A stretch of DNA of 64,000 nt from assembly GCA_019752045.1 (NCBI GenBank), contig JAIEMP010000003.1:434001-498000 (forward strand), given 5' to 3'. This document shows positions 36,521 through 45,377 of this stretch, piece after piece. Below the pieces are notes generated by a model. The model was given only the letters and a program-made list of their open reading frames with translations, was not told the origin of the DNA and did not search any database. Both the position numbers and the translations under genes were made by a program. Origin of the DNA: Chitinophagaceae bacterium. GTDB taxonomy: Bacteria; Bacteroidota; Bacteroidia; Chitinophagales; Chitinophagaceae. Every line of letters begins with the position of its first letter. Within the stretch, counting starts at the first letter, position 1.

Positions 36521-36635
36521 AAGTGCCATCGGCACGCCATGTTAGTAGCCCCAAATGGTAAAGGAGTTGTTGAGCTCCGTAGGAGCGATATGTTGAATTT
36601 GTTAATCATAGAATTCGAATAGATATTTTGGGTTG
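36521..36635. repeat. Left copy of the transposase-flanking repeat
   Basis: It contains the palindromes GTGCC-ATC-GGCAC (36523-36534) and GAGCTCCGTAGGAGC (36572-36586) and runs into the 3' end of the transposase gene. The same order recurs at 37269-37379. Confidence 0.75.
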
Positions 36636-37063
36636 TAATCAATTTCAAATTTTTCCAGAAATTCAAGATATTCCTGCTGGAAGGTTTTTCTTTTATGATG
36701 TTCAGGTTGATTCATAATATAGTTTACAACAGTGGGCGCCTGCGATTTTGAATAACTGAAAGCTCCAAACCCTTCTTGCCAGCTAAATGAGTCCGCAACA
36801 AATTTTTTGTCTTTGAGAAATGAAGAAGAATTTGATTTAATATCTCTTGTTAAGTCTGATATAGACAAATCGGGCTTCATACTCACAAACAAATGGGAAT
36901 GATCGGGCATGCTATGGATTGCATATAATTTTTGCTTCTTATTGTTTACAATACCTGTCATATACATTTGTAATTCCTCTCTGAATGTTTCTTTAATAAA
37001 ATGCTCCCTGCCTTTTACAGCAAACACAATTTGAATGTAGATCTGTGTATATGTGTTTGGCAT
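36602..37063 (-). mobile_element. REP-associated tyrosine transposase (RAYT, IS200/IS605-like)
   Basis: This 153-residue single-domain Y1 transposase has the HUH motif in SMPDHSHLFV (His55, His57) and the catalytic Tyr104 in AFSYSKSQ. RAYTs are chromosomal relatives of IS200/IS605 enzymes that act on short palindromes rather than mobilising themselves freely. Here palindromes of the CTCCGTAGGAG and GCC-ATC-GGC types lie on both sides (36521-36600 and 37070-37350). The gene sits between nuoL and nuoM on the operon strand. A truncated copy of its last ten codons is found at 37346-37379, pointing to a former tandem copy. Confidence 0.9.
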
Positions 37064-39373: not shown

Positions 39374-39681
39374 ATAAAGGCCTCACCCTCGTTCCCTCTC
39401 CGGTAGAGAGGGAGGCCGGGCTTTTATTTTTTAATTGAACAATAGTTTTTACACATTTAGGCCTCACCCTCGTTCCCTCTCCAACAGAGAGGGAGGCCAA
39501 GCTTTATCAATCAATTTATCTATAGCAATTAAGCCTGTCCGAACGTTGTTCATCCGGGCGGACATTTCATCTTTTTTGTGTTTTGTCAACAAATAGCTTG
39601 TTATTAATCATTCTCTTCATCAAGTTGGCCCTGTGCCTTGCTATCCTCTCCGCCGTGGCGGAGGAGTTAGAGGGGGCCGTC
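39374..39681. repeat. nuoK-nuoL spacer: composite of four repeat hairpins
   Basis: The 308-base spacer holds no gene. In plus-strand order it has two copies of the GGCCTCACCCTCGTTCCCTC hairpin (39379-39417 and 39460-39498), a GTCCG/CGGAC hairpin (39535-39570) and the stop-proximal unit with CTCCGCC-GT-GGCGGAG, then GTTAGAGGGGGCC (39621-39678). On the sense (minus) strand, order is stop codon, GGCCCCCTCTAAC hairpin, AT-rich linker, GAGGGTGAGGC hairpin, start codon. Confidence 0.8.
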
Positions 39682-39990
39682 TTAATATTTCATTTCCGTT
39701 GCATCTTCTACATCAATGGATTTATGACTGCGGTAGAGATTGATGATAATCGCAATCGCTACGGCTGCTTCTGCAGCTGCAATCGTAATAATAAAGATGG
39801 TAAAGAAGATGCCGTCTAATTTCTCAGGATATAAATATTTATTGAACGTTACAAAGTTGATGTTAACGCTGTTCAGCATCAGTTCGATGGACATAAGCAT
39901 GGTGATCATGTTACGACGTGTAAACAATCCGTACATGCCGATAAAAAATAAGGCTGTGCTTACAAACAAAATATGAGAAATAGGAATCAT
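39682..39990 (-). CDS. nuoK: NADH-quinone oxidoreductase subunit K
   Basis: This 102-residue complex I subunit has three helices. The conserved Glu in helix 2 is in MSIELMLNSVNINF and that in helix 3 in IITIAAAEAAVAIAIIINLYR. It lies between nuoJ and nuoL on the minus strand. Its stop codon is followed by the repeat composite of the nuoK-nuoL spacer. Length is normal. Confidence 0.94.
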   Translation of the reverse strand: MIPISHILFVSTALFFIGMYGLFTRRNMITMLMSIELMLNSVNINFVTFNKYLYPEKLDGIFFTIFIITIAAAEAAVAIAIIINLYRSHKSIDVEDATEMKY

Positions 39991-40130
39991 AAAGCTTCCT
40001 CCAAACTTTCCCTCTTGGGGAATTCGTTTTGTGTTCGTTTCAAAATAAAGTTGTATCCTGTCATTATTATAAGCTTTAAATACTGTTCAATTTATTTATA
40101 AAAGTCAAATAAGTTGGCCTTGTGTTCTGG
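39991..40130. repeat. nuoJ-nuoK spacer
   Basis: This 140-base spacer contains CTTCCTCCAAAC...CCCTCTTGGGG near the nuoK start and TAAGTTGGCCTTGTG at 40110, the AT-side arm of the stop-proximal repeat. The GC-rich core of that repeat lies inside the nuoJ 3' end (see 40131-40206). Confidence 0.6.
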
Positions 40131-40206
40131 CTAAGTCTCCTCCTTTGGGGGAGATTTAGAGGGGGCTTCTTTATCCCCTCCTTTGGAGGGGCTTGGGGAG
40201 GCCGCA
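40131..40206. repeat. Two repeat units forming the nuoJ 3' end
   Basis: CTCCTCCTTTGGGGGAG followed by ATTTAGAGGGGGC (40137-40166), and CCCCTCCTTTGGAGGGGCTTGGGGAGGCC (40174-40202), lie head to tail. The nuoJ stop codon TAG at 40131-40133 is inside the first unit. Confidence 0.75.
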
Positions 40207-40691
40207 ATTACAATACAACCGATCATAGCAGCGAGCAATAAAATACTCACTACTTCAAACGGAAGAGAAAAGCCGCCCTGCTCTGTATTGAGCATGGCAT
40301 TGCCTATTCTTGCAACACTATTATCAAATACTACTGACTTTGGTTTAAATCCATAGCGGTCAATAAGCATATAAGTGAATGCGAAACCAAATACAACTGC
40401 CAACGCACCTGCAATCATGCGCATCATTGGTGCTTTTTGCATTTCTTTTCCTGATTGCTGTGTAAGAAAGATGGAAAAAATAATGAGGACTACAATACCA
40501 CCCACATACACCACAATCTGAACAGCCGCAATAAATTCAACTTCCATCCAGAAGTATAATCCTGAAATACCAATGAGTGAGAACAACAACCAAATGGCAG
40601 AACGAAAGATCTTCCTGCTGGTAACAGACAGGATGCCCATGCCAAGAATAAAGGCAGAAAGAATGTAAAATATAATTTGTGATGCAGTCAT
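40131..40691 (-). CDS. nuoJ: NADH-quinone oxidoreductase subunit J
   Basis: This 186-residue complex I subunit has five helices, including the pi-bulge helix region IVVYVGGIVVLIIFSIFL. I chose the ATG at 40691 (MTASQIIFYIL); a longer frame upstream is read through a spacer hairpin and is not credible. The last 24 or so residues (ASPSPSKGGDKEAPSKSPPKEET) follow the final helix and are encoded entirely by two repeat units (40131-40206), so the native C-terminus has been extended or replaced by repeat-derived sequence. Confidence 0.92.
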   Translation of the reverse strand: MTASQIIFYILSAFILGMGILSVTSRKIFRSAIWLLFSLIGISGLYFWMEVEFIAAVQIVVYVGGIVVLIIFSIFLTQQSGKEMQKAPMMRMIAGALAVVFGFAFTYMLIDRYGFKPKSVVFDNSVARIGNAMLNTEQGGFSLPFEVVSILLLAAMIGCIVIAASPSPSKGGDKEAPSKSPPKEET

Positions 40692-40907
40692 GGCCTCATC
40701 CTCGGTCTCCCGAAGTTTCGGGAGAGGCCGAGCCGTTATTTTTAAATTAAACAATAGTAATTCAGCCTGTCCGAACGTTGTTCATCCGGGCGGGCATTTC
40801 ATCTTTTCTTTTCAATCAACAACTTCCTATTTCATCTACATCTTTCATAAGCTGGTCTTGTGCCTTGCTATTCTCCCCCCCCTCCGGGGGAGTTAGAGGG
40901 GGCTTTC
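40692..40907. repeat. nuoI-nuoJ spacer: three repeat hairpins
   Basis: GGCCTCATCCTCGGTCTCCC with GGGAGAGGCC (40692-40729) abuts the nuoJ ATG. A GTCCG/CGGGC unit lies at 40766-40800. The stop-proximal unit TAAGCTGG...CTCCGGGGGAGTTAGAGGGGGC (40848-40904) begins a few bases after the nuoI stop codon. Confidence 0.8.
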
Positions 40908-41393
40908 CTATTCAACACCCGCCCTGATCTTTGATCCATCATGATTCAATTTCTTTGTCAACTTGCTTCGGTCAAACACACTATGTTCAAATGTTTGATC
41001 CATTTTAATGGCGCCGGTTGGACAAGCTTCAATACACAGGTTGCAAAACGTACAGAGTTCAAGATGATACACAAATGTGTCAATGGCTTTTTTCTTCTTG
41101 CCTGTTTCTTCATCTACATCAAACTTGGTTACAATCTTGATTGTTGCATTGGGGCACGCCAGTTCGCAGGCTGTACAACCGGTGCAGGCATGTTCATTGT
41201 TTTCATCATGAATCATTACTACCTCGCCTCTGAAACGTTCAGGTAACTGCAGTGTATCCCTGTTATCAGGATACTGTTGAGTAATGATCTCTTTATGATG
41301 CGTAAAATAGTAGCCGGTACGACGCATACCTGTTGCCAGCGACTTTATCGCACCAAATACTTCTTTTATGTAGTTAACTAAAAACATAAGCAA
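40908..41393 (-). CDS. nuoI: NADH-quinone oxidoreductase subunit I
   Basis: This 161-residue peripheral-arm subunit carries clusters N6a and N6b, which pass electrons towards NuoB. Two CxxCxxCxxxCP motifs are complete: Cys70, Cys73, Cys76, Cys80 (CTGCTACELACP) and Cys114, Cys117, Cys120, Cys124 (CTFCNLCIEACP). It has a short basic N-terminal extension (GAIKSLATGMRRTGYYF). The start may be the ATG at 41393 or the one six bases inside. Confidence 0.94.
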   Translation of the reverse strand: MLMFLVNYIKEVFGAIKSLATGMRRTGYYFTHHKEIITQQYPDNRDTLQLPERFRGEVVMIHDENNEHACTGCTACELACPNATIKIVTKFDVDEETGKKKKAIDTFVYHLELCTFCNLCIEACPTGAIKMDQTFEHSVFDRSKLTKKLNHDGSKIRAGVE

Positions 41394-41575
41394 CCCACCC
41401 CTGCACCCCTCCCAAGAGGGGAAACCAGGCTTTATTTTTTTTGTTCAACAATTGTAAATAGACTTTTCATCTTTTTCATTCTATTCATCAAGTACACTAT
41501 TACTCAACATCTTTTCTAAGCTGGCCTTGAGCCTAGCTATTCTCCCCCTCCGGGGGAGTTAGAGGGGGCTTGCCT
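41394..41575. repeat. nuoH-nuoI spacer with two repeat hairpins
   Basis: CACCCCTCCCAAGAGGGG (41411-41428) lies near the nuoI start. TAAGCTGGCCTTGAGCCTAG, then CCCCCTCCGGGGGAG and TTAGAGGGGGC, lie at 41517-41569, next to the nuoH stop codon. The linker is AT-rich. Confidence 0.75.
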
Positions 41576-42652
41576 CTAAAAATGCCACCCCATAATTGCC
41601 ATCAAGGTTACCAGTAATAAATTAAATAAACTGATGGGTAATAAATATTTCCATTCGAGATTCAGTAACTGATCAATGCGGAGCCGTGGGAAGGTCCACC
41701 TGAACCACATGATCACAAAAATTAAAAAGAACGTCTTACCCATAAACCACACAATGCCCGGTATATAATCCATTACATGATTAAACTGTGTATTACTGCC
41801 AAAATGCAATGGCATCCATCCGCCTAAGAATAAGGTTGCACCAACTGCACATACAATAAAAATATTGACATACTCTGCAAGGAAAAACAATGCGAATTTC
41901 ATTCCGGAGTATTCTGTATGAAAGCCCGCCGTTAATTCACTCTCAGCTTCTGCAAGATCAAATGGTGCACGGTTGGTTTCGGCAGTGATGGCAATAATAA
42001 AAATTACAAATGCAATCAGCACCGGAATATGTCCTTTAAATAACCACCAGCCATTTTCCTGCGAAGCAACAATATCCGATATGCGCAAGCTTCCGGTTAA
42101 TACAACAATTGCAATGACGGAAAGACCTGCACTTAATTCATAGCTTACAATCTGTGCACCGCTGCGCATGGCACCTAATAATGAATATTTATTATTGCTT
42201 GCCCATCCGGCCATTAAAATACCAATCACACTTACAGAAGAAACAGCTGTAATAAATAATACACCAATATTTATATCCCATATCTGAAAACCTTTGGAGA
42301 AAGCCAATGGCGCAAGAATCACCATGGCAATGATCATGACAATAAACGGCGCAAGATTAAAAAGAAACTTATCTGCACCATCGGGAGTCATTCCTTCTTT
42401 TACGATCAGCTTTAGTGTATCGGCAACAGTTTGAAACATTCCTTTGGGCCCAACACGGTTAGGTCCTAAACGTACTTGCATATAAGCCGATACTTTCCGT
42501 TCCATCATGATCAGCACCAATCCAAGAATGGAGAATAAACCAATGGCTAAAAGTGCAATAAGTACACTTTCAATAAGGAATGTTGCAGTAGCACCAAACT
42601 GCTGGTACAACCACACATCAAGATCATCGGTTATGTTTTCTAAACTGGGCAT
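41576..42652 (-). CDS. nuoH: NADH-quinone oxidoreductase subunit H
   Basis: This 358-residue membrane subunit of eight helices forms the quinone chamber. Signatures are MMERKVSAYMQVRLGPNRVGPKG near residue 50, EGMTPDGADK, AETNRAPFDLAEAESELTAGFHTEYSGM and RWTFPRLRIDQLLNLEWKYLLP. It lies directly after nuoD in the operon; the genes that normally separate them (nuoE, nuoF, nuoG) are absent. Confidence 0.95.
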   Translation of the reverse strand: MPSLENITDDLDVWLYQQFGATATFLIESVLIALLAIGLFSILGLVLIMMERKVSAYMQVRLGPNRVGPKGMFQTVADTLKLIVKEGMTPDGADKFLFNLAPFIVMIIAMVILAPLAFSKGFQIWDINIGVLFITAVSSVSVIGILMAGWASNNKYSLLGAMRSGAQIVSYELSAGLSVIAIVVLTGSLRISDIVASQENGWWLFKGHIPVLIAFVIFIIAITAETNRAPFDLAEAESELTAGFHTEYSGMKFALFFLAEYVNIFIVCAVGATLFLGGWMPLHFGSNTQFNHVMDYIPGIVWFMGKTFFLIFVIMWFRWTFPRLRIDQLLNLEWKYLLPISLFNLLLVTLMAIMGWHF

Positions 42653-42859
42653 TTGTTAACCTTACCCTTAGTCCCTCTCCAATAGAGAAGGATGCCGGGT
42701 TTTCATTTTATGATTTATACTTTATGATTCTTCTTTTCAAAAATCATCATTTATCATCCATCAAATACAGCTTAGATAAGCTGGCATTGTGCCTTGATAT
42801 CCCTCCCCCCCCCGTCCGAACGGCTTGGCCGGGCGGGCTTTGGGGGAGATGTAGGGGGC
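42653..42859. repeat. nuoD-nuoH spacer, where nuoEFG would be expected
   Basis: The spacer is 207 bases and has no coding remnant of nuoE, nuoF or nuoG that I can see. It contains the start-proximal type (CCTTACCCTTAGTCCCTCTCC...GAGAAGGATGCC, 42660-42698) and a double stop-proximal unit (42773-42860) in which a GTCCGAACGGCTTGGCCGGGC piece is nested within the CTCCCC...GGGGGAG hairpin. Confidence 0.75.
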
Positions 42860-44023
42860 CTATCTGTCAATATCCGGTATCACTAAATCAAGTGATCCCA
42901 TGATGGCAATTAAGTCGCCGATCTTTCCACCTCTGGCCATATGATCCAACGCACTTAAATTACTAAAGCCGGGTGAACGGAACTTGATCCTGTATGGAGT
43001 TGTTCCGCCTTCACTTACAATATAAACACCAAACTCACCACGTGCTGTTTCAACACGACTATAGTATTCGCCTTTTGGCAATTTCAATACTGCTTTTGTT
43101 TTTGCCTGGAACTCACCTTCGGGAACCTGGTCAATCAGTTGCTCAATAATAGAAAGTGATTGACGCATTTCTTTCATCCGCACCATATAGCGTGCATAAC
43201 AATCGCCACCGGTTTCTATCACTTCATCAAACTGCAATTTATTATATACTTCGTAAGGGTATAATTTACGTATATCACAAACTACATTGCTTCCTCTTGC
43301 AACAGGGCCTGTGCAACCATAAGAAACAGCATCTGCTGCAGATAAAACTCCAACGCCCTGCATTCTGTTTTTGAAAATGATATTATCGGTTAACAATTCA
43401 TCATACTCATCAATTTTTAATTTGAATTGTTTGATGAACTCATGTACCCTTCGTTGAAAATTAGGATGCAGATCGGCCATTACGCCACCCGGCACCATAT
43501 AATTCATGGTTAACCTTGTGCCACAGGTTTCTTCAAAAATATCGTTGATCAGTTCCCGTTCACGAAAAGCATGAAAGAAAGGAGTAAGTGCACCCACATC
43601 CATTCCCAATGCTCCCCACCAGAGCTGATGCGAAGCAAGCCTGGTTAATTCATCCATTAATACACGGATCACCTGTGCACGTTCAGGAACTTCAATCTGT
43701 AATCCTTTTTCAACACATAAACAACAACCATGGTTGTTGATATGTGAAGAGAGATAATCCATTTTACTCGTTACATAAATAAACTGGCGGAAGGTTAAGC
43801 TTTCGCACATCTTTTCAATGGAACGATGGATATAACCAAGATGCGGTTCTACCTTTTTAATGGTTTCACCATTTAATGTAATCACCAAGTGCAACACACC
43901 ATGTGTAGATGGATGTTGCGGTCCTACATTAATGATGAGATCGCCGGCCCCCTCTAAATCTCCTCCGCCGTTTAGCGGAGAGACTTGTGTAGCATCTTGT
44001 AATATTTCTGTTTGTCTGTACAT
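42860..44023 (-). CDS. nuoD: NADH-quinone oxidoreductase subunit D
   Basis: This 387-residue 49-kDa-type subunit forms the quinone site with NuoB. Signatures are INVGPQHPSTHGVLHL, EPHLGYIHRSIEK, DYLSSHINNHGCCLCVEKG, GALTPFFHAFRERE and the C-terminal GSLDLVIPDIDR. The N-terminal residues 13-26 (QVSPLNGGGDLEGA) are encoded by a repeat (43946-43987) and are not conserved. NuoC and NuoD are separate genes here, not fused. Confidence 0.95.
   Translation of the reverse strand: MYRQTEILQDATQVSPLNGGGDLEGAGDLIINVGPQHPSTHGVLHLVITLNGETIKKVEPHLGYIHRSIEKMCESLTFRQFIYVTSKMDYLSSHINNHGCCLCVEKGLQIEVPERAQVIRVLMDELTRLASHQLWWGALGMDVGALTPFFHAFRERELINDIFEETCGTRLTMNYMVPGGVMADLHPNFQRRVHEFIKQFKLKIDEYDELLTDNIIFKNRMQGVGVLSAADAVSYGCTGPVARGSNVVCDIRKLYPYEVYNKLQFDEVIETGGDCYARYMVRMKEMRQSLSIIEQLIDQVPEGEFQAKTKAVLKLPKGEYYSRVETARGEFGVYIVSEGGTTPYRIKFRSPGFSNLSALDHMARGGKIGDLIAIMGSLDLVIPDIDR
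43946..43987. repeat. Repeat unit inside the nuoD 5' end
   Basis: GGCCCCCTCTAAATCTCCTC followed by CGCCGTTTAGCGGAG is the stop-proximal spacer family, here read as codons 13-26 of nuoD. Confidence 0.75.
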
Positions 44024-44211
44024 AGCCTCACCCTCGTTCCCTCTCCGGTAGAGAGGGAGGCCGGGCTTTTATTTTTTTAATATAACTTTTGTAATTCAGC
44101 ATTTCGGCTTTTGTTATTCTTAGCATCAAATTTCAAAGTCTTAAAATTTATTAAATTCTCCGTTAAGCTGGGCAAGTGCCATGCAGTTCCCCCTTCAGGG
44201 GGCGGAGGGGG
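44024..44211. repeat. nuoC-nuoD spacer with two repeat hairpins
   Basis: The start-proximal unit (CCTCACCCTCGTTCCCTCTC, then CGGTAGAGAGGGAGGCC) occupies 44024-44059 and touches the nuoD ATG. Read on the sense strand it ends GAGGGTGAGGCT-ATG. The stop-proximal unit TAAGCTGGGCAAGTGCC...CCCCCTTCAGGGGG (44164-44211) touches the nuoC stop codon. Confidence 0.8.
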
Positions 44212-44670
44212 TTACAGTTTTATCATATTCACCGCATCTTCAAAATCTTTCCGTAACGGATTTTTTCCTTCCCATCCATCAGGTAAAATCAATAAACGCA
44301 GATCAGGATGATTAAGAAAATTAACGCCAAACAATTCATACACTTCACGTTCATGAAACTCTGCTGTGCGCCAGATATGTGAAACGGTTTCTATTTCAGG
44401 ACTTGTTCTGTTTAACTCCACTTTCATCACCAATGGTTGACGATGTGCTGTGGAAGTAAAATGATAGACCATCTGCAAATTGGTTTTCCAATCAATACAG
44501 GTTAAGGAAAACATATAATCGAAATTGAGATCAGGATGATTACGAATGATCTCTGCATTTGATAAGAATTTATCTGCAGCAACAGTCATACTGAGCCATT
44601 CGCTACTTTCATCAAGAGTAGCTGTGGGGATGATTTCAGTAAGCTTGTTTTTTAATTCTTCTTTTGTCAT
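44212..44670 (-). CDS. nuoC: NADH-quinone oxidoreductase subunit C
   Basis: This 152-residue 30-kDa-type subunit is part of the connecting arm of complex I. Signatures are MFSLTCIDWKTNLQMVYHF, EIETVSHIWRTAEFHEREVYELFGVNFLNHPDLRLLILPDGWEG near the end and PLRKDF. I chose ATG at 44670 (MTKEELKNKL); a longer frame from 44718 starts inside a repeat and is unlikely. Confidence 0.94.
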   Translation of the reverse strand: MTKEELKNKLTEIIPTATLDESSEWLSMTVAADKFLSNAEIIRNHPDLNFDYMFSLTCIDWKTNLQMVYHFTSTAHRQPLVMKVELNRTSPEIETVSHIWRTAEFHEREVYELFGVNFLNHPDLRLLILPDGWEGKNPLRKDFEDAVNMIKL

Positions 44671-44716
44671 AACTGTATGCAACCAACATCTTTTTCTATT
44701 GAACTTTCTTTCTTGC

Positions 44717-44743
44717 ATCCGTCAGACGAGGGCGTCAGACGGG
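44717..44743. repeat. CCGTCAGACG repeat in the nuoB-nuoC spacer
   Basis: ATCCGTCAGACGAGGGCGTC and the following AGACGGGG carry two CGTCAGACG units. The same core forms the arms of the palindrome inside rsmE. Confidence 0.65.
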
Positions 44744-44752
44744 GCGTTTGTC

Positions 44753-45304
44753 TTAGGCAACTTTCATTTCGTCTCTGATCTGTTCTCTTGTCATACCACT
44801 CTTAATTTTTTCCTGTAGTTGAATCATGGCATGCAGCAAGGCTTCCGGTCTTGGCGGACAACCGGCCACATACACATCAACAGGAATCACATGATCAGCA
44901 CCTTTTACAACTGAATACGTATTGTAAAAAAAAGGACCACCGCTGGTAGCACATGCGCCCATGGCCACTACATATTTCGGATCGGCCATTTGATCGTACA
45001 ATCGTTTCAATACAGGAGCCATTTTATTTACAATGGTGCCTGCAATAATAATCACATCAGCCTGTCGAGGTGTAGCCCTTGCCACTTCAAAACCAAAACG
45101 GCTCCAGTCGTATTTTGCTGCAGCCGTACTCATCATTTCAATGGCACAACAACTGGTGCCAAATACCAATGGCCATAATGAATTGCTGCGTGCCCAGTTG
45201 ATCACATCATCCAAACGGCTGGTTAATACACCACCAGTTGGGGTTTGATGCACATCACCCGGAAAGCCTCCTGCAATTGTCTGAATATTTTTTACTTCAT
45301 CCAT
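44753..45304 (-). CDS. nuoB: NADH-quinone oxidoreductase subunit B
   Basis: This 183-residue subunit carries the terminal cluster N2 next to the quinone site. All four ligands are present: Cys52-Cys53 ([11 protein letters not shown]), Cys118 (MGACATSGG) and Cys149 ([12 protein letters not shown]). [29 protein letters not shown] is the family's core segment. It lies after nuoA with a 75-base spacer that holds another GC hairpin. Confidence 0.95.
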
Positions 45305-45340
45305 TTTTTAAACTCAATTCGTGTACATATATTATTTCAT

Positions 45341-45377
45341 CCATGTTCAGGTTCCCCTTTAGGGGCGGAGTGGCTTT
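45341..45377. repeat. Stop-proximal repeat in the nuoA-nuoB spacer
   Basis: CATGTTCAGGTTCCCCTTTAGGGGCGGAGTGGC is a diverged member of the spacer family, located just past the nuoA stop codon on the sense strand. Confidence 0.6.

Follow-up and report, generated by a model that had tools for sequence, protein, structure and literature searches.

The window analysed here, a 64,000-nucleotide stretch of contig JAIEMP010000003.1 from a Chitinophagaceae bacterium, carries the nuo operon on its minus strand, with hairpins at the junctions between the nuo genes (window 39374–45377). On inspection of the minus (sense) strand, the nuoC/D, D/H, H/I, I/J and K/L spacers follow one layout, as a preliminary description of this DNA had claimed: a stop-side hairpin with a conserved arm, then an A-rich linker, then a start-side hairpin. 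The stop-side hairpin is a copy of a unit termed R2, with a AAGGCACAAGGCCAGCTTA-like arm. The start-side hairpin, unit R1, has GAGGGTGAGGCC as its typical 3′ end in nuo, just 5′ of the ATG; nuoK/L has two such units. Having followed both units through the genome and its relatives, we consider these spacers probably to be copies of a mobile hairpin-ended composite, drawn from a wider family that includes members bearing a DUF559 nuclease gene, the nuo copies being nuclease-less and either mobilised in trans or decayed. The junctions contain the following features.

39379..39432, minus strand: outer start-side hairpin (R1) of nuoK/L, 5 nt 5′ of the nuoL ATG (model match)
39460..39513, minus strand: second, inner start-side hairpin of nuoK/L (model match)
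39537..39562, minus strand: GTCCG-type palindrome in the nuoK/L linker
39619..39677, minus strand: stop-side unit (R2) of nuoK/L, hairpin plus AAGGCACAAGGCCAGCTTA-like arm, 4 nt 3′ of the nuoK stop (model match)
40108..40166, minus strand: stop-side unit of nuoJ/K, with the called nuoJ frame ending inside it (model match)
40692..40744, minus strand: start-side hairpin of nuoI/J, inner stem replaced, directly 5′ of a nuoJ ATG (model match)
40769..40794, minus strand: GTCCG-type palindrome in the nuoI/J linker
40846..40903, minus strand: stop-side unit of nuoI/J, 4 nt 3′ of the nuoI stop (model match)
41397..41441, minus strand: divergent start-side hairpin of nuoH/I (weak model match, E 0.73)
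41515..41569, minus strand: stop-side unit of nuoH/I, 6 nt 3′ of the nuoH stop (model match)
42658..42711, minus strand: start-side hairpin of nuoD/H, 5 nt 5′ of the nuoH ATG (model match)
42775..42859, minus strand: stop-side unit of nuoD/H, directly 3′ of the nuoD stop, its loop holding a nested GTCCG palindrome (model match)
43946..43984, minus strand: in-frame 39-nt hairpin inside nuoD, encoding the 13 residues VSPLNGGGDLEGA
44024..44077, minus strand: start-side hairpin of nuoC/D, directly 5′ of the nuoD ATG (model match)
44162..44212, minus strand: divergent stop-side unit (CCCCCTCCGCCCCC) of nuoC/D, abutting the nuoC stop (model match)
45350..45374, minus strand: stop-side-like hairpin of nuoA/B with no start-side partner (by eye)

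No start-side partner was found for the nuoJ/K stop-side unit. This unit, the nuoA/B hairpin, the nuoD insert and a palindrome at nuoB/C add to the features of the preliminary description. The 39-nt insert of nuoD is missing from the closest relative found (genome G012), and Rfam gave no match in the window at gathering thresholds.

Both units recur across the 4.16-Mb genome, models of the two returning 39 start-side and 64 stop-side copies at E ≤ 0.01; an exact-pattern search with one mismatch allowed gave 28 matches, against 0 for the reversed control. On most measures both stems show more covariation than shuffled and slid controls, in alignments that had been fitted to the unit models; the number of pair types in the stop-side unit does not exceed its control (176 of 500 shuffles reach the observed value). 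Where the preliminary description saw two different families with fixed positions, the fixed order stands: 19 same-strand pairs occur in it genome-wide, five of them in nuo, each about 150–300 bp long and built of a left hairpin with the conserved arm, an A-rich linker and a right hairpin. The separateness does not stand. Two independent unit families are replaced by the two ends of one composite (same strand, fixed order, 19 examples, none inverted). No opposite-strand R1/R2 pair lies within 600 nt among the 112 matches compared, and only two pairs run in reversed order, both spanning a nuo gene. Pairing took in 46 of 64 R1 and 66 of 93 R2 matches, with every match at E ≤ 0.01 included (39 and 64); the weaker remainder, seven start-side and two stop-side, comprised several chosen for nearness to a partner, which favours pairs, and four start-side and two stop-side weak matches sit within the 19 composites. 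Built without any match weaker than E 0.01, composites number 13.

The ordered placement at stops and starts described for nuo holds genome-wide, the check set for random placement having come out non-random. With gene boundaries taken from a purpose-written open reading frame (ORF) caller, 44 of the 64 stop-side units are intergenic and 41 of the 44 lie downstream of a same-strand gene; 36 are found at −11 to +11 nt from a same-strand stop, where random placement within those spacers would give 4.7%. In 10 of these 36 the gene terminates inside the first 9–11 nt of the unit, so the unit itself supplies the stop codon. Twenty-five intergenic start-side units lie 5′ of a same-strand gene, nine ending ≤6 nt from the start codon and 19 ending ≤35 nt from it; nine of the 34 intergenic copies face an antisense gene, and because five of those nine abut the stop codon of that gene, the start-side end marks a gene border and not starts only. 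Counting negative distances as 0 and taking the first in-frame start codon 3′ of the unit as the start, we found that 12 of the 17 composites flanked by same-strand genes leave a residual spacer of 0–15 nt (8 of 12 when weak matches are dropped, from the set of 13). Gaps of ≤15 nt constitute 0.8% of same-strand spacer bases (length-weighted p = 2.6e-22), an excess of roughly 90-fold, and 25% of spacers (per-gap p = 1e-4). Limiting the length-weighted comparison to spacers of ≤50 nt leaves it significant (p = 3e-9).

In relatives several of these junctions are empty. The nuoK/L spacer is 3–4 nt in genomes G003, G007, G010 and G013, versus 185–308 nt with a composite in the present genome (G000), G001, G004 and G012. 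NuoC/D measures 3 nt in G001, G003, G007 and G013 (by eye, to the ATG) and nuoH/I 6–9 nt in G003, G007 and G013, depending on the start chosen, while nuoJ/K in compact relatives of the genus is an overlapping ATGA (by eye). A survey of 80 named NuoH loci gave a K/L spacer of ≤15 nt in 42 of 75 and a J/K spacer of ≤15 nt in 66 of 77, and several of the long spacers carry the same hairpins. At the suf genes, p4 and p5 are separated by 5 nt in G007, G010 and G013 versus ~190 nt in G000 and G012; p5/p6 is an overlapping TGATG in G000, G003, G007 and G013 and 21–22 nt in G001 and G010, and in G012 a composite replaces the last codons of p5 and the first codons of p6. In G009 and G013 (loci L083 and L086), nuoD and nuoH are separated by an ExbD-like small gene (named by eye).

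The units also lie inside genes. Twenty of the 64 stop-side units are in frame within 18 genes of this genome, identified by Pfam or NCBIfam matches: HemF, TrpF, a class I tRNA synthetase, MgsA/RarA, two E1 dehydrogenases, an ABC transporter, UvrD, an Lhr-like helicase, MetH, LeuRS, GcvP, MetRS, homoserine kinase, gamma-glutamyltransferase, TrpE, IspG and acetyl-CoA synthetase. Their 10:10 division between sense and antisense suggests random orientation, a reading rejected on the encoded peptides: all ten sense units translate as left ends (for example, APSNSPEGGE) and all ten antisense units as right ends (for example, SPGGDLEGA) of sense-oriented elements. The arm translates as KAQGQL, and AQGQL, TQGQL or AQPL occurs in several in-gene copies. 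Compared with solved structures, HemF has ~53 extra residues and LeuRS ~142. Such placement is not expected of a cistron-end device.

Hairpins of the same kinds accompany a nuclease gene. DUF559 is present in 60 of 117 family genomes, and the genome studied here has five DUF559 genes, two of them in frame, in Acs and LeuRS. Genomes with the unit have DUF559 in 38 of 44 cases versus 22 of 73 without it (Fisher p = 3e-9, for genomes that are not fully independent and with weak unit matches that can be lost); units were scored on 48–49 candidates per genome under strict filters, so absences are soft. We assembled 34 DUF559 loci, five of them in this genome and the other 29 being best matches in other genomes, and counted 36 of 105 model matches in them (E ≤ 0.01, short core-only matches left out). 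Twenty-eight of the 36 fall within 300 nt of the DUF559 domain, a density 13.6 times that in the rest of these 34 loci, and 22 of these 28 hairpins have the outer end facing outward. L151 and L164 are cut by contig ends; in 22 of the 32 readable loci the domain lies inside a frame of at least 250 amino acids (11 of the 22 LeuRS-like by eye), as do 48 of 99 DUF559 matches at E ≤ 1e-20. Free-standing DUF559 genes at L148, L160 and L171 appear, as the composites do, to occupy the space from a stop to the following ATG (by eye). Downstream of one and the same argF-like gene (named by eye), a DUF559 element is found in G010 and a composite without nuclease in G000.

Fourteen residues are invariant across 24 DUF559 domains. 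Among solved structures the best match is 3hrl, an endonuclease-like protein; the DUF559 profile matches the homing endonuclease I-Bth0305I at E 2e-5, and the predicted DUF559 fold (predicted local distance difference test, pLDDT, 91) matches it at E 9e-5, with template-modelling (TM) scores of 0.73/0.77 for one chain and 0.61/0.65 for the other. Vsr is a weaker match to the predicted fold. Profile and fold together suggest that the DUF559 protein of the nuclease-bearing members, encoded between hairpins of the same kinds, is an EDxHD or Vsr-like homing-type endonuclease. DUF559 elements recur at similar places in LeuRS and MetH in several genera (by eye), a recurrence suggestive of homing. 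Unlike inteins, the one host scanned (LeuRS L106) shows no Hint or other splicing domain, Pfam at E ≤ 1e-8 returning synthetase and nuclease domains only. In G064 and G036, MetH contains a DUF559 element; in G000 it has a short element-like stretch, seemingly at the same site (L156, L157 and L101; by eye), which would fit loss of the nuclease in situ.

We favour a course of events in which a DUF559 nuclease would cut its target inside a gene or at a stop–start junction, and repair of the break would copy in the hairpin-ended element, sometimes with loss of a few flanking bases. Copies would persist only where both flanking genes still function, which they could do because the ends can be read through in frame, or else bring a stop codon of their own and end at an ATG. 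Those in nuo would be derivatives without the nuclease, either mobilised in trans or remnants of decay, and any influence on nuo mRNA would be a side effect. The data show recurrence in a fixed order and orientation, filled and empty sites, location at stop–start junctions and in frame within genes, and a link between the hairpins and DUF559 genes. Cleavage by DUF559, homing and mobilisation of the composites in trans are steps we infer; the nuo repeats look like homing-nuclease-linked mobile elements rather than a nuo regulatory device. As to whether the nuclease targets junctions or copies selectively survive there, insertion into overlapping stop–start codons and the length-weighted gaps lean towards targeting, whereas the per-gap comparison and the longer empty sites at nuoD/H and nuoI/J do not.

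Several observations weigh against a mobile, nuclease-linked composite. Neither movement nor cleavage was observed, and nuo is enriched, with five of the 19 composites. The association with the nuclease is incomplete: six of the 44 unit-bearing genomes show no DUF559; 17 of the 34 DUF559 loci have no counted unit nearby, the other 17 having at least one; six of the 28 hairpins near DUF559 point the wrong way; and among ten DUF559 loci with flanks inspected, L162 is without such a hairpin and L166 has another kind. In architecture, the DUF559 elements of Acs and LeuRS (G000) end in stop-type hairpins on both sides, whereas the nuo composites are of stop/start type, and the conserved arm of the composites was not seen in the DUF559 elements inspected. 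Nor is every empty site tiny, since in compact relatives nuoI/J is 28 nt (G003, G007, G010 and G013), nuoD/H 70–79 nt (G003, G007 and G010), suf p2/p3 76–80 nt of other sequence (G001, G007 and G013) and suf p1/p2 32–41 nt (G001, G003 and G013). No clear target-site duplication was visible by eye at the nuoK/L, nuoH/I, nuoD or suf sites, and once spacers of ≤50 nt are counted one each, the excess of short gaps is not significant (p = 0.14).

Three other explanations have to be set beside this one. Were the units functional operon parts placed by selection, the stop-side unit would protect or process 3′ ends or stall ribosomes at the stop, and the start-side unit would serve initiation. The distance to stops is very tight and within the range (≤15 nt of the stop) cited for ribosome stalling at Escherichia coli repetitive extragenic palindromic sequences (REPs; PMC12306157, used like the other articles cited here in partial text), the stems covary, and orientation is sense in 17 of 18 composites between same-strand genes. 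We nonetheless judge this explanation unlikely. The same units occur in frame inside genes, relatives have much shorter gaps at the same junctions, close relatives differ in presence, and palindromes are nested within these hairpins; the in-frame copies and shorter gaps, together with units that flank nuclease genes, also speak against the cistron-end-specific role that had been suggested for them. Intrinsic terminators (a hairpin followed by a T run) were rejected on the sense strand, where a simple scan found no terminator-like site at the nuo hairpins bar one weak match in the D/H linker, in keeping with the earlier argument that the hairpins cannot all be terminators.

Non-adaptive spread, by host recombination or replication slippage between GC-rich palindromes and with a junction bias due to purifying selection alone, seems to us very improbable: it fits the necessary removal of gene-breaking copies by selection, the nested palindromes that hairpins visibly acquire and the lack of a significant difference in per-gap counts among spacers of ≤50 nt, but selection alone does not readily explain a roughly 90-fold length-weighted excess of ≤15-nt gaps, and neither insertion into overlapping stop–start codons nor the DUF559 link sits well with it. 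Mobilisation of REP-like palindromes, or of bacterial interspersed mosaic elements (BIMEs), by a Y1 (RAYT-type) transposase, with DUF559 genes as later passengers invading the palindromes, is improbable. REPs elsewhere also lie near stops and inside ORFs (PMC3733652), and the genome has eight Y1 transposase matches, several with flanking palindromes of their own. However, the six Y1 flanks read show other palindromes or none and no hairpin of nuo type (two of the eight were not read properly), which agrees with the earlier statement that the palindromes of the transposase differ and led us to reject Y1 as the mobiliser; the hairpins are, moreover, denser beside DUF559 and co-occur with it across genera. 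One IS200-like Y1 gene lies within the window downstream of nuoL (36602–37063) and has its own CGCTCCTACGGAGC and TGGCGTGCCGATGGCAC palindromes.

Known systems share single traits with the elements described here. EDxHD homing endonucleases, with the conserved residues E-x-D-xxx-H, share the DUF559 domain match by profile and fold, and a catalytic domain related to I-Bth0305I is present in the DUF559 relatives; the nuo copies carry no nuclease. In contrast to EDxHD homing systems, the nuclease here is bounded by hairpins and either translated in the host frame or free between genes. BOX, ERIC and miniature inverted-repeat transposable element (MITE)-type sequences are modular, non-autonomous and intergenic or in-frame, and resemble the present elements in this. 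The DUF559 elements do have inverted hairpin ends, but no insertion-sequence (IS) transposase partner or target-site duplication was found here, with none clear by eye at the nuo, nuoD and suf sites. Among published accounts, one article describes EDxHD enzymes (PMC3943268), another describes a DUF559 gene with inteins and assigns it to the EDxHD homing family (PMC9403480), a third concerns a DUF559 Vsr-like protein of Caulobacter (PMC12907096), and BOX-, ERIC- and MITE-type elements are named in PMC10969869. That article also covers Rickettsia palindromic elements, which at ~150 bp lie in frame inside unrelated metabolic genes; in-frame insertion in unrelated conserved genes is likewise seen here (20 units, 18 genes), but by description our elements are set apart, also filling operon stop–start junctions as two-hairpin composites and sharing end kinds with a nuclease gene. 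REPs and BIMEs are small multicopy palindromes, some near stops, supplying the stop codon or inside ORFs (PMC3733652, PMC12306157). The present units, too, are multicopy extragenic palindromes near stop codons; they differ in having two different hairpins in fixed order, a conserved arm and a DUF559 link, and no Y1 gene is flanked by them in the six of eight Y1 flanks read. A GTAG or CGTC tag at one end was not evident by eye in the aligned units, no count being made. We found no description of such elements in the open-access library searched, which is without most subscription papers, and no DUF559 gene linked to palindromic ends in the partial texts on DUF559, EDxHD enzymes, REPs and Rickettsia palindromic elements.

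Should the nuo spacers be such mobile composites, DUF559 genes of this kind would gain a role, a class of GC-rich repeats in Chitinophagaceae would be accounted for, and mobile DNA would be seen entering essential operons and, without a splicing domain, essential proteins such as LeuRS. There are consequences for gene calling and protein comparison too, since stretches coded by the elements form part of housekeeping proteins here. A sharp, testable question also follows: the nuclease chooses the stop–start junction, or selection leaves only the copies that landed there. On a broader proposal our opinion is evenly balanced, namely that these elements form a frame-respecting selfish class in which an EDxHD (DUF559) nuclease, flanked by hairpin ends, homes without splicing into the frames of conserved genes and also into stop–start junctions, where the element ends act as stop and start borders, and nuclease-less copies colonise whole operons like nuo. 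Selfish DNA may in this way have a hitherto undescribed means of spreading that leaves genes intact. A comparable habit may belong to a second nuclease family, GxxExxY with CCACAGAG inverted ends, seen at one suf junction; stop–start junctions would then offer mobile DNA a general niche in these bacteria.

The GxxExxY nuclease gene, whose G007 copy matches TIGR04256 at E 7e-45, has CCACAGAGACAC-type inverted ends and lies between two suf genes in G007, G010 and G012 (L255:4081-4534 and the corresponding junctions of L257 and L259); an internal stop interrupts the G012 copy, and the junction is 30–33 nt in G013 and G003. Other inverted-repeat spacers occupy the same suf junctions of relatives (L254, L255 and L258; by eye), bounded by CTCACAGATT...AATCTGTGAG and CCACAGAG...CTCTGTGG.

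Further palindromes accompany the nuo hairpins. The nuoB/C spacer (window 44719–44752) is a different palindrome, CCGTCAGACGAGGGCGTCAGACGGGGCG, and one of the same kind by eye lies in a suf spacer of the same genome. Palindromes are nested within unit hairpins at L030, L038, L193 and L207 and at window 42806–42845, and include a CGTCATTGCGAG-type repeat and GTCCG palindromes. The GTCCG palindrome also occurs without the two end hairpins nearby, in a stretch read at locus L024, and it occupies the same linker position in nuoK/L and nuoI/J, AAATG^CTTAATTAC.

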